NCBI GenBank assembly: GCA_020403265.1
Contig: JADBXZ010000008.1
Span: forward strand, 62,001 to 126,000
From: Bacteroidota bacterium
GTDB lineage: Bacteria; Bacteroidota; Bacteroidia; B-17B0; Aurantibacillaceae
Reading direction: 5' to 3'
Length of the DNA: 64,000 nucleotides
Below are positions 56,966-64,000 of this stretch, piece after piece. The notes below the pieces were generated by a model. The model did not search any database, was not told the DNA's origin, and saw nothing but the letters and a program-made list of their open reading frames with translations. The translations under genes and the position numbers were made by a program. Every line of letters begins with the position of its first letter. The stretch's first letter is position 1.

Positions 56966-59035
56966 CTGAAAAAAAATAGAAACATATTTATTTTAGTTTG
57001 TTTTTACGGCTTATTTCTGAGTGCTCAGGAAGATTCTGCCAGGTATTATCTTAAGTCTAAACTGCCGATAATCACCAGAATTCAAAAATGCATGAAAGCG
57101 GCTTATTTAACCATGAATTATGAAACTTCGGTTACGTTTTATAATAAATTAACCGCATTACCGGAAATTGGTCAAAATCCTGAATATTTGTGTATGGCTG
57201 CCAACGAATTGGCGAACAATGCAGGAGAATTAGGAAAATTAAATGAGGCCACTGCAATTATGAAAGATGCAGTAGAGAAAACCAAGGGCCAATTATCAGA
57301 TACAATGGCAGCAAACAGTTACTATTTTCTGTCATATCTATATTTTTCAATTGGAGATTACGAGCCAGCCGTAAGCACTTGTTTTACATCTTTACAATAT
57401 TCCGAAAAATCCGGCAATAAAAGATTGATCGGCGCGGCCTACAATAATTTGGGTTTAATTTATTCCGAGAAATCATCGCCCGATTTTAAAAAAGCGTTGG
57501 AGTATTTCTTAATTTCCGAAAAGTTATTAAAGCCATTTAAACACCCTGTTACCATGGGCTTGGTTTACTTAAGAATCGGGGATGTATTATCGATGCAAAA
57601 TGAATATGCACAAGCCGAAAAATATTTTGCAAAGGCATTAAGGATTGGAGATAGTTGTAATAGAGTATCCATTCAAAAATGGACATTGGAAAAATATGGC
57701 AAAATGTTACGCCGAATGGGTAATCGTTTAAGGGCATTAGAAATGATGAAACGCTCAGTGGAGATTTCTGAAAGAAACAAGGAGTATATTGGGCAAGCCA
57801 GCACATCTTATGAAATTGCCTCCTTGTACATGGAATTAAAAGATTATGCAAATGCCGCTAAATATGCTGATTCCGCAATTGTTGTTTCGAACAGGATAGG
57901 ACAATTAAATACGCTCTATCAAGCCAGTAAAATAAGAGCTGATGTTTTTGAATTAAAAGGTGATTACAAAAATGCATTGGGTTATTTTAAAAAGCACAAG
58001 TTTTATTACGACTCATTAAATAAAAATGAAAATCTAAATAACATTAATGAGTTAGAGCAAAAGTATAAAACTAAGGCTCAGGAAAAAGAATTACTGGAGA
58101 AGGAAAAATTGTTAGGACAACAACAGGCAGATATCACACAACAGCAAGTGTATAGAAATTATTTTGTGGCAGGCTTAATAGCATTAACTGCCTTTTTGCT
58201 GTTGTTATTTAAAGGTTATCAAACAAAACAACGCACAGCTAACCTACTTACAGAAAAAAACTATTTGATAGAAGAAAAAAACAAAGAAATTTTAGGAAGT
58301 ATTAGTTATGCCAAGCGTATACAGGGCGCCATTCTGCCATCATCACGTATTGTAAAAGCACATTTACCTGATAGTTTTATTTTATACAAACCAAAAGATA
58401 TTGTGGCAGGAGATTTTTATTGGATAGAACAGGTTAATGATGTTGTGTTATTTGCAGCAGCAGATTGCACAGGACATGGTGTGCCAGGGGCAATGGTGAG
58501 TGTTGTTTGTAATAATGCGCTTAATAGGAGTGTAAGGGAATACGGCTTGCGTGAGCCCGGTAAAATATTGGACAAAACCCGACAACTCATTATAGAAGAG
58601 TTTGAAAAAAGTGAGGAAGAGGTGAAAGACGGGATGGATATTTCAATTGTATCTTTTTCGCGCAGAGATTCAGTAATTGAATGGGCCGGGGCAAACAATC
58701 CGCTATGGATTATTAAAAATGGTTCAAACGAAATACTGGAAATTAAACCTGATAAACAACCGATAGGGCAGTATGCCAACATGCAGCCATTTAAAACACA
58801 TCAAATGGAAGTAGCTAAAGGTGATTGTATATACGTTTTTACAGATGGTTATCAAGATCAATTTGGAGGGGAGAAAGGAAAAAAATACAAGGCAAGTCAA
58901 TTAAAAGAATTGCTGTTAAACATTAAGCAGGAGGAAATGGACATTCAAAAAGAAATGATTGAACGTGAATTTGAAAACTGGAAAGGCCTGCTGGAACAAG
59001 TAGATGATGTAACGATTATTGGTGTGAGGGTTTGA
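56966..59035 (+). CDS. Secreted/membrane TPR protein with SpoIIE-type PP2C phosphatase domain
   Basis: About 689 residues. Signal sequence, six or so TPR repeats (about 45-365: GAAYNNLGLIYSEK, GLVYLRIGDVL, ASTSYEIASLYMEL), a coiled coil, one membrane helix (about 400-417), a second coiled coil, and a cytosolic SpoIIE domain: IVAGDFYWIE, AAADCTGHGVPGAMVS, AGANNPLW, YVFTDGYQDQFGG, DDVTIIGV. These residues hold the two metal ions. Such proteins sense periplasmic signals and dephosphorylate partner proteins. The best start is CTG 56966 (then Lys-Lys-Asn), since no ATG precedes the signal peptide. Confidence 0.85.
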   Translation: MKKNRNIFILVCFYGLFLSAQEDSARYYLKSKLPIITRIQKCMKAAYLTMNYETSVTFYNKLTALPEIGQNPEYLCMAANELANNAGELGKLNEATAIMKDAVEKTKGQLSDTMAANSYYFLSYLYFSIGDYEPAVSTCFTSLQYSEKSGNKRLIGAAYNNLGLIYSEKSSPDFKKALEYFLISEKLLKPFKHPVTMGLVYLRIGDVLSMQNEYAQAEKYFAKALRIGDSCNRVSIQKWTLEKYGKMLRRMGNRLRALEMMKRSVEISERNKEYIGQASTSYEIASLYMELKDYANAAKYADSAIVVSNRIGQLNTLYQASKIRADVFELKGDYKNALGYFKKHKFYYDSLNKNENLNNINELEQKYKTKAQEKELLEKEKLLGQQQADITQQQVYRNYFVAGLIALTAFLLLLFKGYQTKQRTANLLTEKNYLIEEKNKEILGSISYAKRIQGAILPSSRIVKAHLPDSFILYKPKDIVAGDFYWIEQVNDVVLFAAADCTGHGVPGAMVSVVCNNALNRSVREYGLREPGKILDKTRQLIIEEFEKSEEEVKDGMDISIVSFSRRDSVIEWAGANNPLWIIKNGSNEILEIKPDKQPIGQYANMQPFKTHQMEVAKGDCIYVFTDGYQDQFGGEKGKKYKASQLKELLLNIKQEEMDIQKEMIEREFENWKGLLEQVDDVTIIGVRV

Positions 59036-59157
59036 GAAACTTGTTTATTTTTGAAATGCAAGGTAAAGGCTACAGTTAATTTTGTTAAGGATCTTTGACT
59101 TATTGATAAACAACATTGCAGTTAAAATGGTATCAACCGAAAAAGTTGTGATTTGCT

Positions 59158-59195
59158 CCCGCCTGCCATTGCAAAAAGCCTCTGAGGCTGGCAGG
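59158..59195. repeat. REP-like palindrome replacing the centre of a CRISPR repeat
   Basis: 38 bp starting CCCGCCTGCC and ending GGCTGGCAGG, with an inner AGCCTC-T-GAGGCT hairpin. It follows base 13 of the CRISPR repeat. The repeat's bases 14-26 are missing and bases 27-47 follow. The outer arms CCTGCC/GGCAGG are shared with the element in the next repeat. Confidence 0.8.
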
Positions 59196-59259
59196 TTTGA
59201 CTTATTGATAAACACCATTATTTGACTTTGCTGTGCCAAATGGAGGGTTGTGATTTGCT

Positions 59260-59299
59260 CCCGCCTGCCTATCGCAAATTATTGTTATCGGCGGGCAGG
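59260..59299. repeat. REP-like palindrome inserted in a CRISPR repeat
   Basis: 40 bp, starting CCCGCCTGCC and ending GGCGGGCAGG, forming an imperfect palindrome. It is inserted after base 13 of the repeat, with bases 14-47 complete after it. No target duplication is visible. The insertion point equals that of the element at 59158. Confidence 0.85.
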
Positions 59300-60931
59300 T
59301 TCAAAATGTATCTTTGACTTATTGATAAACACCGTATTACAATGCGGTTGAAGTAGCAAGTTTGTTGTGATTTGCTTTCAAAATGTATCTTTGACTTATT
59401 GATAAACACCAAACATAACCTAATTAGTACCACGATCGTGTTGTGATTTGCTTTCAAAATGTATCTTTGACTTATTGATAAACACCCAATGCCGGTTGTC
59501 AACAAAACAAAGCCGGTTGTGATTTGCTTTCAAAATGTATCTTTGACTTATTGATAAACACCCAGCAACGGGACTACATCATTACATAACTCGTTGTGAT
59601 TTGCTTTCAAAATGTATCTTTGACTTATTGATAAACACCCTACTCGCTAAGGATGTAATATTGATGGTGTTGTGATTTGCTTTCAAAATGTATCTTTGAC
59701 TTATTGATAAACACCTAGCTACATTATTAGGCGTTTTAACAACACGTTGTGATTTGCTTTCAAAATGTATCTTTGACTTATTGATAAACACCGTATCTGA
59801 AATAAGGGAGAATAAAATAGTGTTGTGATTTGCTTTCAAAATGTATCTTTGACTTATTGATAAACACCTGTTTACTTGCAATACAAACATCTTGGCTTGT
59901 TGTGATTTGCTTTCAAAATGTATCTTTGACTTATTGATAAACACCATTCGTTTGTTTTTTAAAAGACATGGGCTAGTTGTGATTTGCTTTCAAAATGTAT
60001 CTTTGACTTATTGATAAACACCATCTTAGTAGATATACCGCTAAAGATTTTAGTTGTGATTTGCTTTCAAAATGTATCTTTGACTTATTGATAAACACCT
60101 TTCGTCAACTTCAAACAGTCCGTAATTACGTTGTGATTTGCTTTCAAAATGTATCTTTGACTTATTGATAAACACCGTGGTGGTCAGGGCGCATCCAAAA
60201 CCGTTTGTTGTGATTTGCTTTCAAAATGTATCTTTGACTTATTGATAAACACCACTTAGTAAAAATATTGCGCAAGACCTTGAGTTGTGATTTGCTTTCA
60301 AAATGTATCTTTGACTTATTGATAAACACCGGATTTAGTAGGTGAAGAAGTAGAGGTGTTGTTGTGATTTGCTTTCAAAATGTATCTTTGACTTATTGAT
60401 AAACACCCGAGGCCGACGAAGCAATAAACGAGCCGGTGTTGTGATTTGCTTTCAAAATGTATCTTTGACTTATTGATAAACACCATAAAAAACCCCAACA
60501 AACAACCTCAACACGTTGTGATTTGCTTTCAAAATGTATCTTTGACTTATTGATAAACACCTTAATACGTGGGTCAAAGCTTACAAAGTCAGTTGTGATT
60601 TGCTTTCAAAATGTATCTTTGACTTATTGATAAACACCTACGCTGCAATGCCAAAAACTTCTACTAAGTTGTGATTTGCTTTCAAAATGTATCTTTGACT
60701 TATTGATAAACACCCGATTGAATTTGACGAAGTGGTTTATTCATGTTGTGATTTGCTTTCAAAATGTATCTTTGACTTATTGATAAACACCTTTTGATGT
60801 GAGCCAATTGAACTTCCAAAAGTTGTGATTTGCTTTCAAAATGTATCTTTGACTTATTGATAAACACCAATAAACGCATGTGTGGGTTGGGAGGGTAGTT
60901 GTGATTTGCTTTCAAAATGTATCTTTGACTT

Positions 60932-61048
60932 ATTGATAAACACCATATAAGTCGAAAACACAACAAAATCAAGGGTTTTAGGTAAATTTATCAATATAAA
61001 AAATGAGGTTTTATCGAGCAATTATCCACCCTAAAGGTGGATTTTTTG
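60932..61048 (+). ncRNA. Candidate tracrRNA-like transcript beside the array
   Basis: Tentative. GAAAACACAAC at 60954-60964 can pair with the repeat start GTTGTGATTT at 9 of 10 positions. TTTATCAATA at 60988-60997 matches the reverse complement of the repeat end. A clean terminator closes the segment at 61024-61048, and the last repeat's TATCTTTG (60920-60927) could start it. Against this, anti-repeat pairing is weaker than usual, and the true tracrRNA may lie beyond cas9 outside the window. Confidence 0.25.
61024..61048 (+). terminator. Plus-strand terminator behind the CRISPR array
   Basis: ATCCACC / GGTGGAT stem, CTAAA loop, then a six-T run on the plus strand only. It ends transcripts coming from the array and shields cas2 from antisense reading. 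Confidence 0.8.
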
Positions 61049-61057
61049 TTTCTAATT

Positions 61058-61101
61058 GTTCTCGGCTAAGTTTATCCTGAGCCAAGCCGAAGGGCTCGAA
61101 C
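61058..61101. repeat. REP-like imperfect palindrome between array and cas2
   Basis: 44 bp, outer arms GTTCTCGGCT and AGGGCTCGAAC, with CCTGAGCCAAGCCGAAGGG inside. It resembles the TCGA/CTGAG-type palindromes scattered through Bacteroidota genomes. It lies 16 bp from the cas2 stop. Confidence 0.6.
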
Positions 61102-61116
61102 TGACAATAATTGTGG

Positions 61117-62134
<1,018 letters not shown>

Positions 62135-62180
62135 AAGAGTTTTTTACAAATTTTATCTATTAAACCCTCTTAGGGTGGAG

Positions 62181-63146
62181 CTATAATTCCGGGTACAGGA
62201 TTTTACGCTGTTCACCATTAAAACATTTAACAACACTAACTGCTGTGCGCTGTGTAGCAATCATCAGAGGACTTTTTTCACCATCAATTGTTACATCAAT
62301 AGCGGGTATTTTTAATAAAGCGGCTTTATGGTCTTTGGTCATTTCATCAGTTATACCCATTTCTTCTACCATTTGATGTACAATTTGGTCAACATAAGGG
62401 CGGTAGGGTTCCATTAAATCATCGGCCAAGCAATAGGCATTGTATCTATTTTTATGAAAAATACCAAGGGTAGGGAGTAAGCCTGCTGCTACAATACTAC
62501 GAGCCATGGTAGCGCGTAAAATGGCGTAGCCATAATTTAAATAATTATTGGGGGGTGGTCCTTCTCTGTGGCGAACAAAACCATTTACATGCCTGAAAAT
62601 GGTTTGCCAATAATATACGGCGGCAGTTGCTTCACAATTATCGGCATCGCCACTTTTTACATTGCGGTGTAATGGAATTAAATAATCAGCTACTAAAGAT
62701 TTACTTTCTAATGCGGCTGCCTGATTTTTAATTTTTTGAGAAACCGTTTGTTGCCATAATTGTTTTTTTAAGGGCTCGCTGGCACTTAATTGAGCCTCGT
62801 AGCGCTCTTGCTGTATGCTGTTACCCTCAAGGGGTAATAGCATGCTTTGTGGCATGTGGCGGTAATCACAAATAATAACAGCTACATTGTTTTCTTGCAA
62901 GGCTTGCAGCAAACCACTGGTTAAGGTAATTTGAGGATGATCTATAACTACAATGCCAATATCTTCTACAGGAATAGTAGTTAGGGCTTCTCGTTTAAAG
63001 TTGAGGGTGTTCTCATCTCTCGACTCCGCTCGAGATGACTCGCTCAAACTCACATTTTTCTCTACCTCGGGCAAACGAATGTTTAACTGAGCATTTTTGA
63101 TACTTAAATAAGATGGGTTTCCGAAGTATAGAGTTCGTTTGATCAT
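62181..63146 (-). CDS. cas1: CRISPR integrase Cas1 (type II-C) with in-frame REP insertion
   Basis: 321 residues. MIKRTLYFGNPSYLSIKNAQ begins the beta-domain. Metal ligands are Glu172 (CEATAAVYYW), His231 (GIFHKNRYNAY) and Asp242/243 (LADDLMEPYRP). It inserts new spacers with Cas2. Between LPEVEKN and FKREALTTIP the segment SESSRAESRDEN (35-46) is encoded by a palindromic sequence (63014-63037). Homologues I remember have only a few residues here, so about 12 are extra, in a surface turn. The ATG overlaps the cas9 stop by 4 bp. Confidence 0.93.
   Translation of the reverse strand: MIKRTLYFGNPSYLSIKNAQLNIRLPEVEKNVSLSESSRAESRDENTLNFKREALTTIPVEDIGIVVIDHPQITLTSGLLQALQENNVAVIICDYRHMPQSMLLPLEGNSIQQERYEAQLSASEPLKKQLWQQTVSQKIKNQAAALESKSLVADYLIPLHRNVKSGDADNCEATAAVYYWQTIFRHVNGFVRHREGPPPNNYLNYGYAILRATMARSIVAAGLLPTLGIFHKNRYNAYCLADDLMEPYRPYVDQIVHQMVEEMGITDEMTKDHKAALLKIPAIDVTIDGEKSPLMIATQRTAVSVVKCFNGEQRKILYPEL
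63014..63037. repeat. REP-like palindrome inside cas1
   Basis: CATCTCTCGAC-TCCG-CTCGAGATG, arms CATCT...TCGA and TCGAGATG with a 2-base offset. It matches the 'ATCTCGAG...CTCGAGAGAT' palindromes common in flavobacterial genomes. It preserves the reading frame. Confidence 0.65.
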
Positions 63147-64000
63147 GCTTTTGAGATATTGCCTAATCTATCTGCTTTGATTTTTATGCAATAATTTTTA
63201 ATCATAATTCCATCAGTCGAATTTTGGCTTTTAGACTGGGGACTTCCAACACCAAATTCATTTTGAATTGAGTAATCAATTTTTCTTTTTTCTTGCTCTT
63301 TCTTCGAAATATTGAACAATAAATTCGCTACTCTAAACGGAACAAAATTAGCAGTTGTATCGCTACTATCAGTAAATTTATAAATTCTATTTTTCTGTTC
63401 ACTAACTAAGTTTTCAAAATCAATTTTGGATTTGCTGGATATTTCTTCTTGGGTAGGAATGTAAACTAAATCGTTAGGCGACAGATAAAATAAAAGACTA
63501 TCACCTTTTTCGTTTATTTCGGGCACAGAGATCAACCCTTGTTTTTGTCTCTCTATGACAATGTTTAAAGGAATGGTTTCAAAATTTCTTTTTCCATTTT
63601 CATCTTGGTAAATAGCAAAGAACAAGTTTGTACCTTTGGCAGCTTCAACATACTTGTATTTTTTGTTTCCCTTTATTCCCAAAGGGAATTTGTTTCCCAA
63701 TTCAAAAATTCTTGCTTTATAAATTGGTTGATGTAATTTTCCATTATTAAAATCAGCAATATTTTTATTCAAATCTTCAATTCCTTCAGGTGAAAATGCT
63801 ACTTCGGGATTATTGTTTTTGCTTGCTAGGTAATTCCTTAAAATTTTTTGAATACCTGTGTCGGTAATTGATTCTATTGTTTTTAAATCAAAATTCGTGT
63901 CAATGTTTTTTCTTGTAGCCGTTAGTATTTTCCCTTTGGGAATTCTTATTCTTGGCAAGTCAACTTTCCCCGAAATAGTTTCTTTATGTATAGACTTTCG
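63143..64000 (-). CDS. cas9: Cas9 (type II-C), C-terminal part, runs off the window
   Basis: About 285 residues of the C-terminal region are visible, and the frame stays open to base 64000. Readable features are HKETISGKVD near the edge, YKARIFELGNKFPLG, KYVEAAKGTNLFFAIY, FETIPLNIVIERQKQG, LLFYLSPNDLVYIP and a final IKNYCIKIKADRLG, which belong to the wedge and PAM-interacting domains of Cas9 from Bacteroidota. A TTG at 63956-63958 is internal, not a start. The RuvC, HNH and recognition parts lie outside the window. The stop overlaps the cas1 ATG (ATGA). Confidence 0.93.
   Translation of the reverse strand, partial: RKSIHKETISGKVDLPRIRIPKGKILTATRKNIDTNFDLKTIESITDTGIQKILRNYLASKNNNPEVAFSPEGIEDLNKNIADFNNGKLHQPIYKARIFELGNKFPLGIKGNKKYKYVEAAKGTNLFFAIYQDENGKRNFETIPLNIVIERQKQGLISVPEINEKGDSLLFYLSPNDLVYIPTQEEISSKSKIDFENLVSEQKNRIYKFTDSSDTTANFVPFRVANLLFNISKKEQEKRKIDYSIQNEFGVGSPQSKSQNSTDGIMIKNYCIKIKADRLGNISKA

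Follow-up and report, generated by a model that had tools for sequence, protein, structure and literature searches.

The window, a stretch of 64,000 nucleotides from the genome of an uncultured Bacteroidota bacterium (G000), carries a CRISPR array at 59145–60944 that is part of a type II-C Cas9 locus. The array lies on the plus strand and contains 23 full-length repeats, 21 of which have the normal 47 bp form (GTTGTGATTTGCTTTCAAAATGTATCTTTGACTTATTGATAAACACC), with spacers of 29–30 nt and the newest end at the right. The leader region between array and cas2 (60945–61116) adjoins cas2 and unchanged repeats. A further REP-like palindrome was seen in this interval (61061–61101), and the sister species G014 has a different palindrome there. 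Next to the leader, all on the minus strand, were found cas2 (61117–61461; PF09827, TIGR01573), a RAYT-like gene (REP-associated tyrosine transposase; 61478–62134), type II cas1 (62181–63146; PF01867; TIGR03639, E=3.6e-88) and the 3′ part of cas9 (63143–64000; TIGR01865, E=6.5e-129), the rest of which extends beyond the window (1534 aa in all). The genes cas9, cas1, RAYT and cas2 form one operon pointing at the array. This is the gene set of type II-C, with cas9, cas1 and cas2, without csn2 or cas4, and with the array adjoining cas2; the sole extra is the RAYT-like gene, which lies between cas1 and cas2. The tracrRNA anti-repeat (TTTTGAAGCAAATCACA) was located upstream of cas9, outside the window (L049 12790), and is followed by a terminator. 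Positions 23–30 of the repeat (TATCTTTG) fit the Bacteroidota TAnnTTTG promoter box, a putative assignment made by sequence only. In II-C arrays of this phylum, promoters lie within the repeats and transcription runs toward the leader (PMC8092290, PMC10309648). Rfam gave no match across 58900–64000. In cas1, a palindrome (CATCTCTCGACTCCGCTCGAGATG, 63014–63037) is inserted in frame, and the stretch it encodes is longer than in some relatives.

Two repeats of the array depart from the normal form. Repeat 1 (59145–59216, plus strand, 72 bp) reads GTTGTGATTTGCT, CCCGCCTGCCATTGCAAAAAGCCTCTGAGGCTGGCAGG, TTTGACTTATTGATAAACACC, with a REP-like palindrome of 38 bp at 59158–59195 (plus strand; hairpin −14.1 kcal/mol) and with repeat positions 14–26 missing (13 bp, TTCAAAATGTATC). 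Repeat 2 (59247–59333, plus strand, 87 bp) shows a clean insertion after position 13 and reads GTTGTGATTTGCT, CCCGCCTGCCTATCGCAAATTATTGTTATCGGCGGGCAGG and the complete remaining 34 bp; its palindrome, of 40 bp, occupies 59260–59299 (plus strand; hairpin −17.9 kcal/mol). The preliminary description had both repeats breaking after base 13 and carrying palindromes of 38 and 40 bp, with coordinates that proved right to the base, and it was confirmed that one repeat is otherwise intact and that the other has lost 13 bp. A degenerate outermost half repeat had been missed; it consists of the 3′ half only (ATCTTTGACTTATTGATAAACAAC, 59091–59114, plus strand) and lies outside repeat 1 with its own 30-nt spacer. 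Because of this half repeat, repeats 1 and 2, at the leader-distal end, are to be called the oldest two only among full-length repeats; their age follows from the entry of spacers beside cas2. CCTGCC...GGCAGG hairpins occurred twice in the window, both as array inserts, against 0.02 expected from shuffles. An intrinsic terminator was considered for the inserts and rejected by eye, as no T run follows the hairpins.

The inserts belong to a dispersed family. The pattern CCCRCCTRCC...GGCAGG, a palindrome of 35–40 bp, was found in 10 genomes out of the 40 of the genus; two of these ten, G324 and G009, gave 8 and 12 matches. This dispersal bears out the earlier view of the inserts as REP-like palindromes. 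Across the 40 genus genomes the family has the character of a REP, a 20–40-bp palindrome dispersed in many copies, with two exact copies in the window's own genome, both within the array. Classical REPs are palindromes tagged with GTAG or CGTC (PMC3733652). No such terminal tag was present on any element sequence examined, and the elements are therefore termed REP-like only. The earlier suggestion that the repeat holds a target site was not borne out, since the flanks of 23 non-CRISPR copies showed no preference for GCT/TT (position −1 was G in 15 of the 23) and insert positions vary between arrays; lacking a consensus among these 23 copies, a common target site was rejected. A separate hairpin, TCCGCCRCGGCGGA, was noticed within tRNA-like fragments (TAGCTCA-hairpin-GGTAGAG), where it looks like an insertion into a D-loop; the fragments adjoin genuine tRNA genes of G000 and G015 (L156:173, L157:162, L173:182).

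Whether base 13 was hit once or twice could be addressed with G014. At the edge of its contig C46, two repeats read GTTGTGATTTGCT/CCCGCCTGCCACGCAAATGATTGTTATCGGCGGGCAGG/TTCAAAATA..., which is the repeat-2 element at the repeat-2 junction, and a second hairpin is stacked further on. Relatives with inserts after GCT had been named as a check, and these two repeats answer it with the same insert at the same junction. A second array end of G014 (L176:1-600) has 107-bp repeats with two stacked hairpins. In contig C11 of this species, a related element forms a clean insertion at position 26, GTATC/CCCACCTACC...GGCAGG/TTTGACTT. The 5′ junction of repeat 1 corresponds to site 13 and its 3′ junction to site 26, and the 13 bp lost are the exact interval between both sites. 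Given the C46 junction, found twice, a single copied insertion is simpler than two independent hits at one base, and the independent double hit was set aside. Of the other possibility raised earlier, one hit followed by rearrangement, the single hit at 13 is favored by C46, and the rearrangement of repeat 1 is suggested by its 13/26 junctions. As far as these junctions can tell, base 13 was most likely hit once, the copy then spreading with its repeat. DNA identity between G000 and G014 was 91% for cas2 and 80% for the leader, which would fit either old shared ancestry or exchange of the locus. All genomes concerned are metagenome assemblies, and repeats and hairpins are hard to assemble; an assembly artefact is nevertheless very improbable, because two species whose genomes were assembled independently share the insert and its junction, every repeat with an insert is paired with a spacer of its own, and similar inserts are found in several families.

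Palindromes in the middle of CRISPR repeats were also found in arrays beyond these two species, both in the 80 II-C loci, mostly of Bacteroidota, that were fetched by a Cas1 scan and in further class genomes. The oldest repeats of G015 carried TCCGCCGCGGCGGA three times, the four oldest repeats of L080 carried ACCCCGACCCATCGGGGT, and L104 carried TCCCGCCAGAGGCGGGA in its oldest; longer inserts were present in the arrays of L082, L095 and L120. A pattern search for lengthened repeats in 395 class genomes gave matches in 9, with further inserts including those of G186, G082, G133 and G251. This search selects by position, and its cases were left out of the position test. In the survey unselected for inserts, all 12 distinct insert events fell in positions 13–31 of the ~77-nt unit and 0 in spacers (p~5e-8 for uniform placement, with events treated as independent and with inserts that destroy a repeat end under-counted, as recognisable ends were needed). 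In 8 of 8 arrays with inserts, the affected repeats were exactly the oldest block. Inserts of other sequence entered at repeat positions 13, 15, 17, 18, 19, 21, 26 and 31 with variable losses. Repeat 2 and site 26 of G014 are clean, and other inserts replace 2–13 bases or duplicate a few. Searching plasmid sequences gave no match for an insert-bearing repeat. One interval of 178 nt was noticed in the array of L135.

The order of inserts within an array bears on how they spread. In G015, L080 and L104, runs of 2–4 identical inserts are followed by a return to unmodified repeats, which needs recombination with an unmodified repeat. The oldest repeats of G014 C11 run in the order complex, A, B, A, B, B, B, A, with 36 unmodified repeats after them, hairpin A being TCCGCCACGGCGGA (3 times) and hairpin B AGCTTGTCCGCTTTTCAGCGGAT (4 times). 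Copying alone does not explain this order, and several insertions, gene conversion or recombination between arrays are needed. Spread between neighboring repeats might have come mainly from gene conversion or from recombination with arrays of other strains, not from spacer acquisition, as the alternation of A and B in C11 and the finding of identical inserts with two different repeat 3′ halves (ACTTATTGATAAACACC and TGTATTGATAAAAAC) would suggest. However, copying accounts equally well for the identical-insert runs of L080, G015, G251 and L095, and the repeats offer only 15–30 bp of homology on each side of an insert. As the main route we consider it unlikely.

The location of the inserts in the middle of the repeat can be set against the pairing of the repeat with tracrRNA. 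The tracrRNA anti-repeat pairs with repeat positions 2–12 and 14–21 and leaves a bulge at 13. When repeat 2 was co-folded with it, the full duplex was predicted to stay intact and the element to project from it as a side arm. All six repeat variants tested, among them those of repeat 1, A, B and G015, retained at least the lower stem. Inserts in the middle leave the lower stem of the crRNA-tracrRNA duplex and the repeat ends intact, and tolerance therefore explains their position at least as well as targeting does; as the middle of the repeat is where least harm is done, selection can account for the position without a targeting enzyme. We thus regard it as probable that dispersed REP-like palindromes are tolerated mid-repeat in the oldest repeats of a type II-C array.

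From the element family, the junctions, the copy in the sister species and the position in the oldest repeats, all of which were observed, we infer the following course. The element would have entered one repeat after position 13, without loss or duplication of any base, either in a common ancestor with G014 or at some time before the locus was exchanged. The lengthened repeat would then have been copied during spacer addition, giving adjacent repeats with the same insert. Repeat 1 may have lost exactly positions 14–26 in the way that recombination of a site-13 element with a site-26 element would leave it; this step draws on the occupation of site 26 in G014 and on the two inserts stacked in one repeat there. 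Inserts would survive mid-repeat in the tolerant part, the first 12 bases forming the lower stem with tracrRNA, base 13 the bulge, and the last ~25 bases holding the putative promoter box and the repeat end used by Cas1-Cas2. They would stay in the oldest repeats, which presumably no longer serve as templates for new ones and whose spacers matter least.

The same boundary can be read as a sign that the inserts are useful, the hairpin behind the crRNA part stabilizing the crRNA 3′ end or insulating the repeat-embedded promoters. Unrelated arrays repeatedly show different hairpins at this functional boundary, 7 of 17 tested inserts fold much better than shuffled sequences (z −2.7 to −4.7), and the duplex is preserved. 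Against this, the inserts occur only in the oldest repeats and are missing from the newest and most used ones, the TATCTTTG box is damaged in two cases (repeat 1 of G000 and L080), and several inserts are not hairpins (L082, G186, G082). Retention for a function is accordingly doubtful, and tolerance of the inserts is preferred.

Given that a RAYT-like gene adjoins cas2, its possible part in the insertions was considered. The product of 61478–62134 contains the motif MPNHFHFL (HUH) and matches PF01797 with 24.4 bits (cut-off 23); the match to NF047646 (E=5.5e-14, 52 bits) is below the cut-off of 80, and the TnpArep 4ER8 profile matched with E=0.003. RAYT genes were present inside the cas operon and on the same strand in 19 of the 80 II-C loci, in cas9-cas1 or cas1-cas2 slots (L049, L056, L061, L066, L068, L073, L076–L079, L082, L090, L104, L116, L126, L129, L130, L136, L138), and 11 of the best 30 RAYT loci of the class lay in cas operons. 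The operon RAYTs come from several independent lineages, and in L104 cas1 is flanked by two of them, one at either side; a single domesticated clade of cas-RAYTs was rejected by the tree. The same intergenic slots also hold GIY-YIG, DUF559, YhcG, RhuM, BRO-N and AAA genes, and RAYT is provisionally taken to be the most frequent of the passenger genes there. Elsewhere in the class, RAYTs adjoin a DeoC-like aldolase gene (L190, L191, L193, L194, L196, L197, L200), a second recurrent address; in L196, RAYT stands between this gene and an aldehyde dehydrogenase gene. A palindrome, AACCCTTCAAGGGTTTTAAACCCTTGAAGGGTT, is present in the RAYT coding sequence of the window (61851–61883), and the same type flanks or sits within RAYTs of the genus (L263, L264, L266, L268, L269, L271).

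A Y1/RAYT enzyme, perhaps the one between cas1 and cas2, could insert single-stranded palindromes into repeats that are single-stranded during spacer integration, which would make the repeat a true hot spot. Besides the frequent RAYT genes in cas operons, the many inserts in one region and the clean insertion of repeat 2, without target duplication, agree with this. Clean insertion without target duplication is expected of IS200/IS605-like enzymes. Moreover, all 7 genus genomes with at least two elements carry this RAYT, compared with 11 of 33 others (Fisher p=0.0017). However, the palindromes flanking RAYTs of the genus are mostly ACCCT..AGGGT and other types, not CCCGCC..GGCAGG, and with the settings used no flanking palindrome was found beside the RAYT of the window. 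The CCCGCC palindrome as cognate REP of the cas-RAYT is not supported by these flanks, despite a weak correlation in presence. In addition, the 23 non-CRISPR copies share no target bases, the places of insertion and the bases lost differ from case to case, no RAYT match was obtained for G015, which does have repeat inserts, and the cas-linked RAYTs are neither one clade nor the only genes in their slots. A true hot spot is therefore improbable, if marginally less so than any other alternative to tolerance. The earlier suggestion of a palindrome-mobilizing enzyme acting here finds a RAYT gene beside cas2, yet relatives of this gene are flanked by palindromes of a different sequence; targeted mobility is possible, not supported, and a site-specific enzyme is an unlikely hypothesis.

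These results suggest that CRISPR memory is recurrently damaged or decorated in this way; they do not prove that an enzyme targets the repeat. The pattern is real and recurrent and, as a pattern, apparently undescribed: no paper on REPs in CRISPR repeats was found in the open-access literature, in keeping with the preliminary description, which knew of no such case, and none on RAYT genes in cas operons was found in the same literature. A bolder reading is that adaptation exposes the repeat as ssDNA, that Y1/RAYT enzymes, often encoded in Bacteroidota cas operons, land there, and that Cas1-Cas2 then copies repeats that have grown from 47 bp to up to 107 bp, with the result that II-C arrays would accumulate and propagate mobile hairpins; we hold this to be quite unlikely. 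The arrays provide a natural series of lengthened repeats (+7, +10, +21, +40, and a total of about 107 bp where two elements are present) that are apparently still duplicated or exchanged, so that a II-C system could be used to test how strictly Cas1-Cas2 gauges repeat length. They also show, from natural cases, where in a Cas9 repeat an insertion is tolerated, and they indicate that palindromes can occupy CRISPR repeats and mislead array detection. If the cas-operon RAYT were responsible, two DNA-integrating systems would be linked; whatever the cause, the frequent RAYT genes in II-C cas operons merit reporting.

Several known systems can be compared with these findings. Like REP elements (PMC3733652), the inserts are 20–40 bp long, palindromic and dispersed, at times inside genes and structured RNAs; unlike them, they are without a GTAG/CGTC tag and without a demonstrated transposase link, have few copies per genome and lie within CRISPR repeats. 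The cas1 palindrome resembles a Rickettsia-type palindromic element within a gene. As in the RAYT/TIRYT systems (REPtrons, TIRtrons; PMC3733652), the product of 61478–62134 shows a Y1 HUH motif together with a match to the model for REP-associated transposases, and its relatives are flanked by inverted repeats, whereas here the gene is inside a cas operon and the flanking palindromes of its kind do not match the array inserts. A mobile element also interrupts the II-C array of Flavobacterium psychrophilum CN46 (PMC10309648); that case is one full-length IS256 with target duplication, in contrast to the short palindromes that occur repeatedly mid-repeat in the oldest repeats here. Finally, changes gather in the leader-distal repeats as they do in degenerate terminal CRISPR repeats, but here structured elements are inserted instead of point decay, and the repeat ends are kept.
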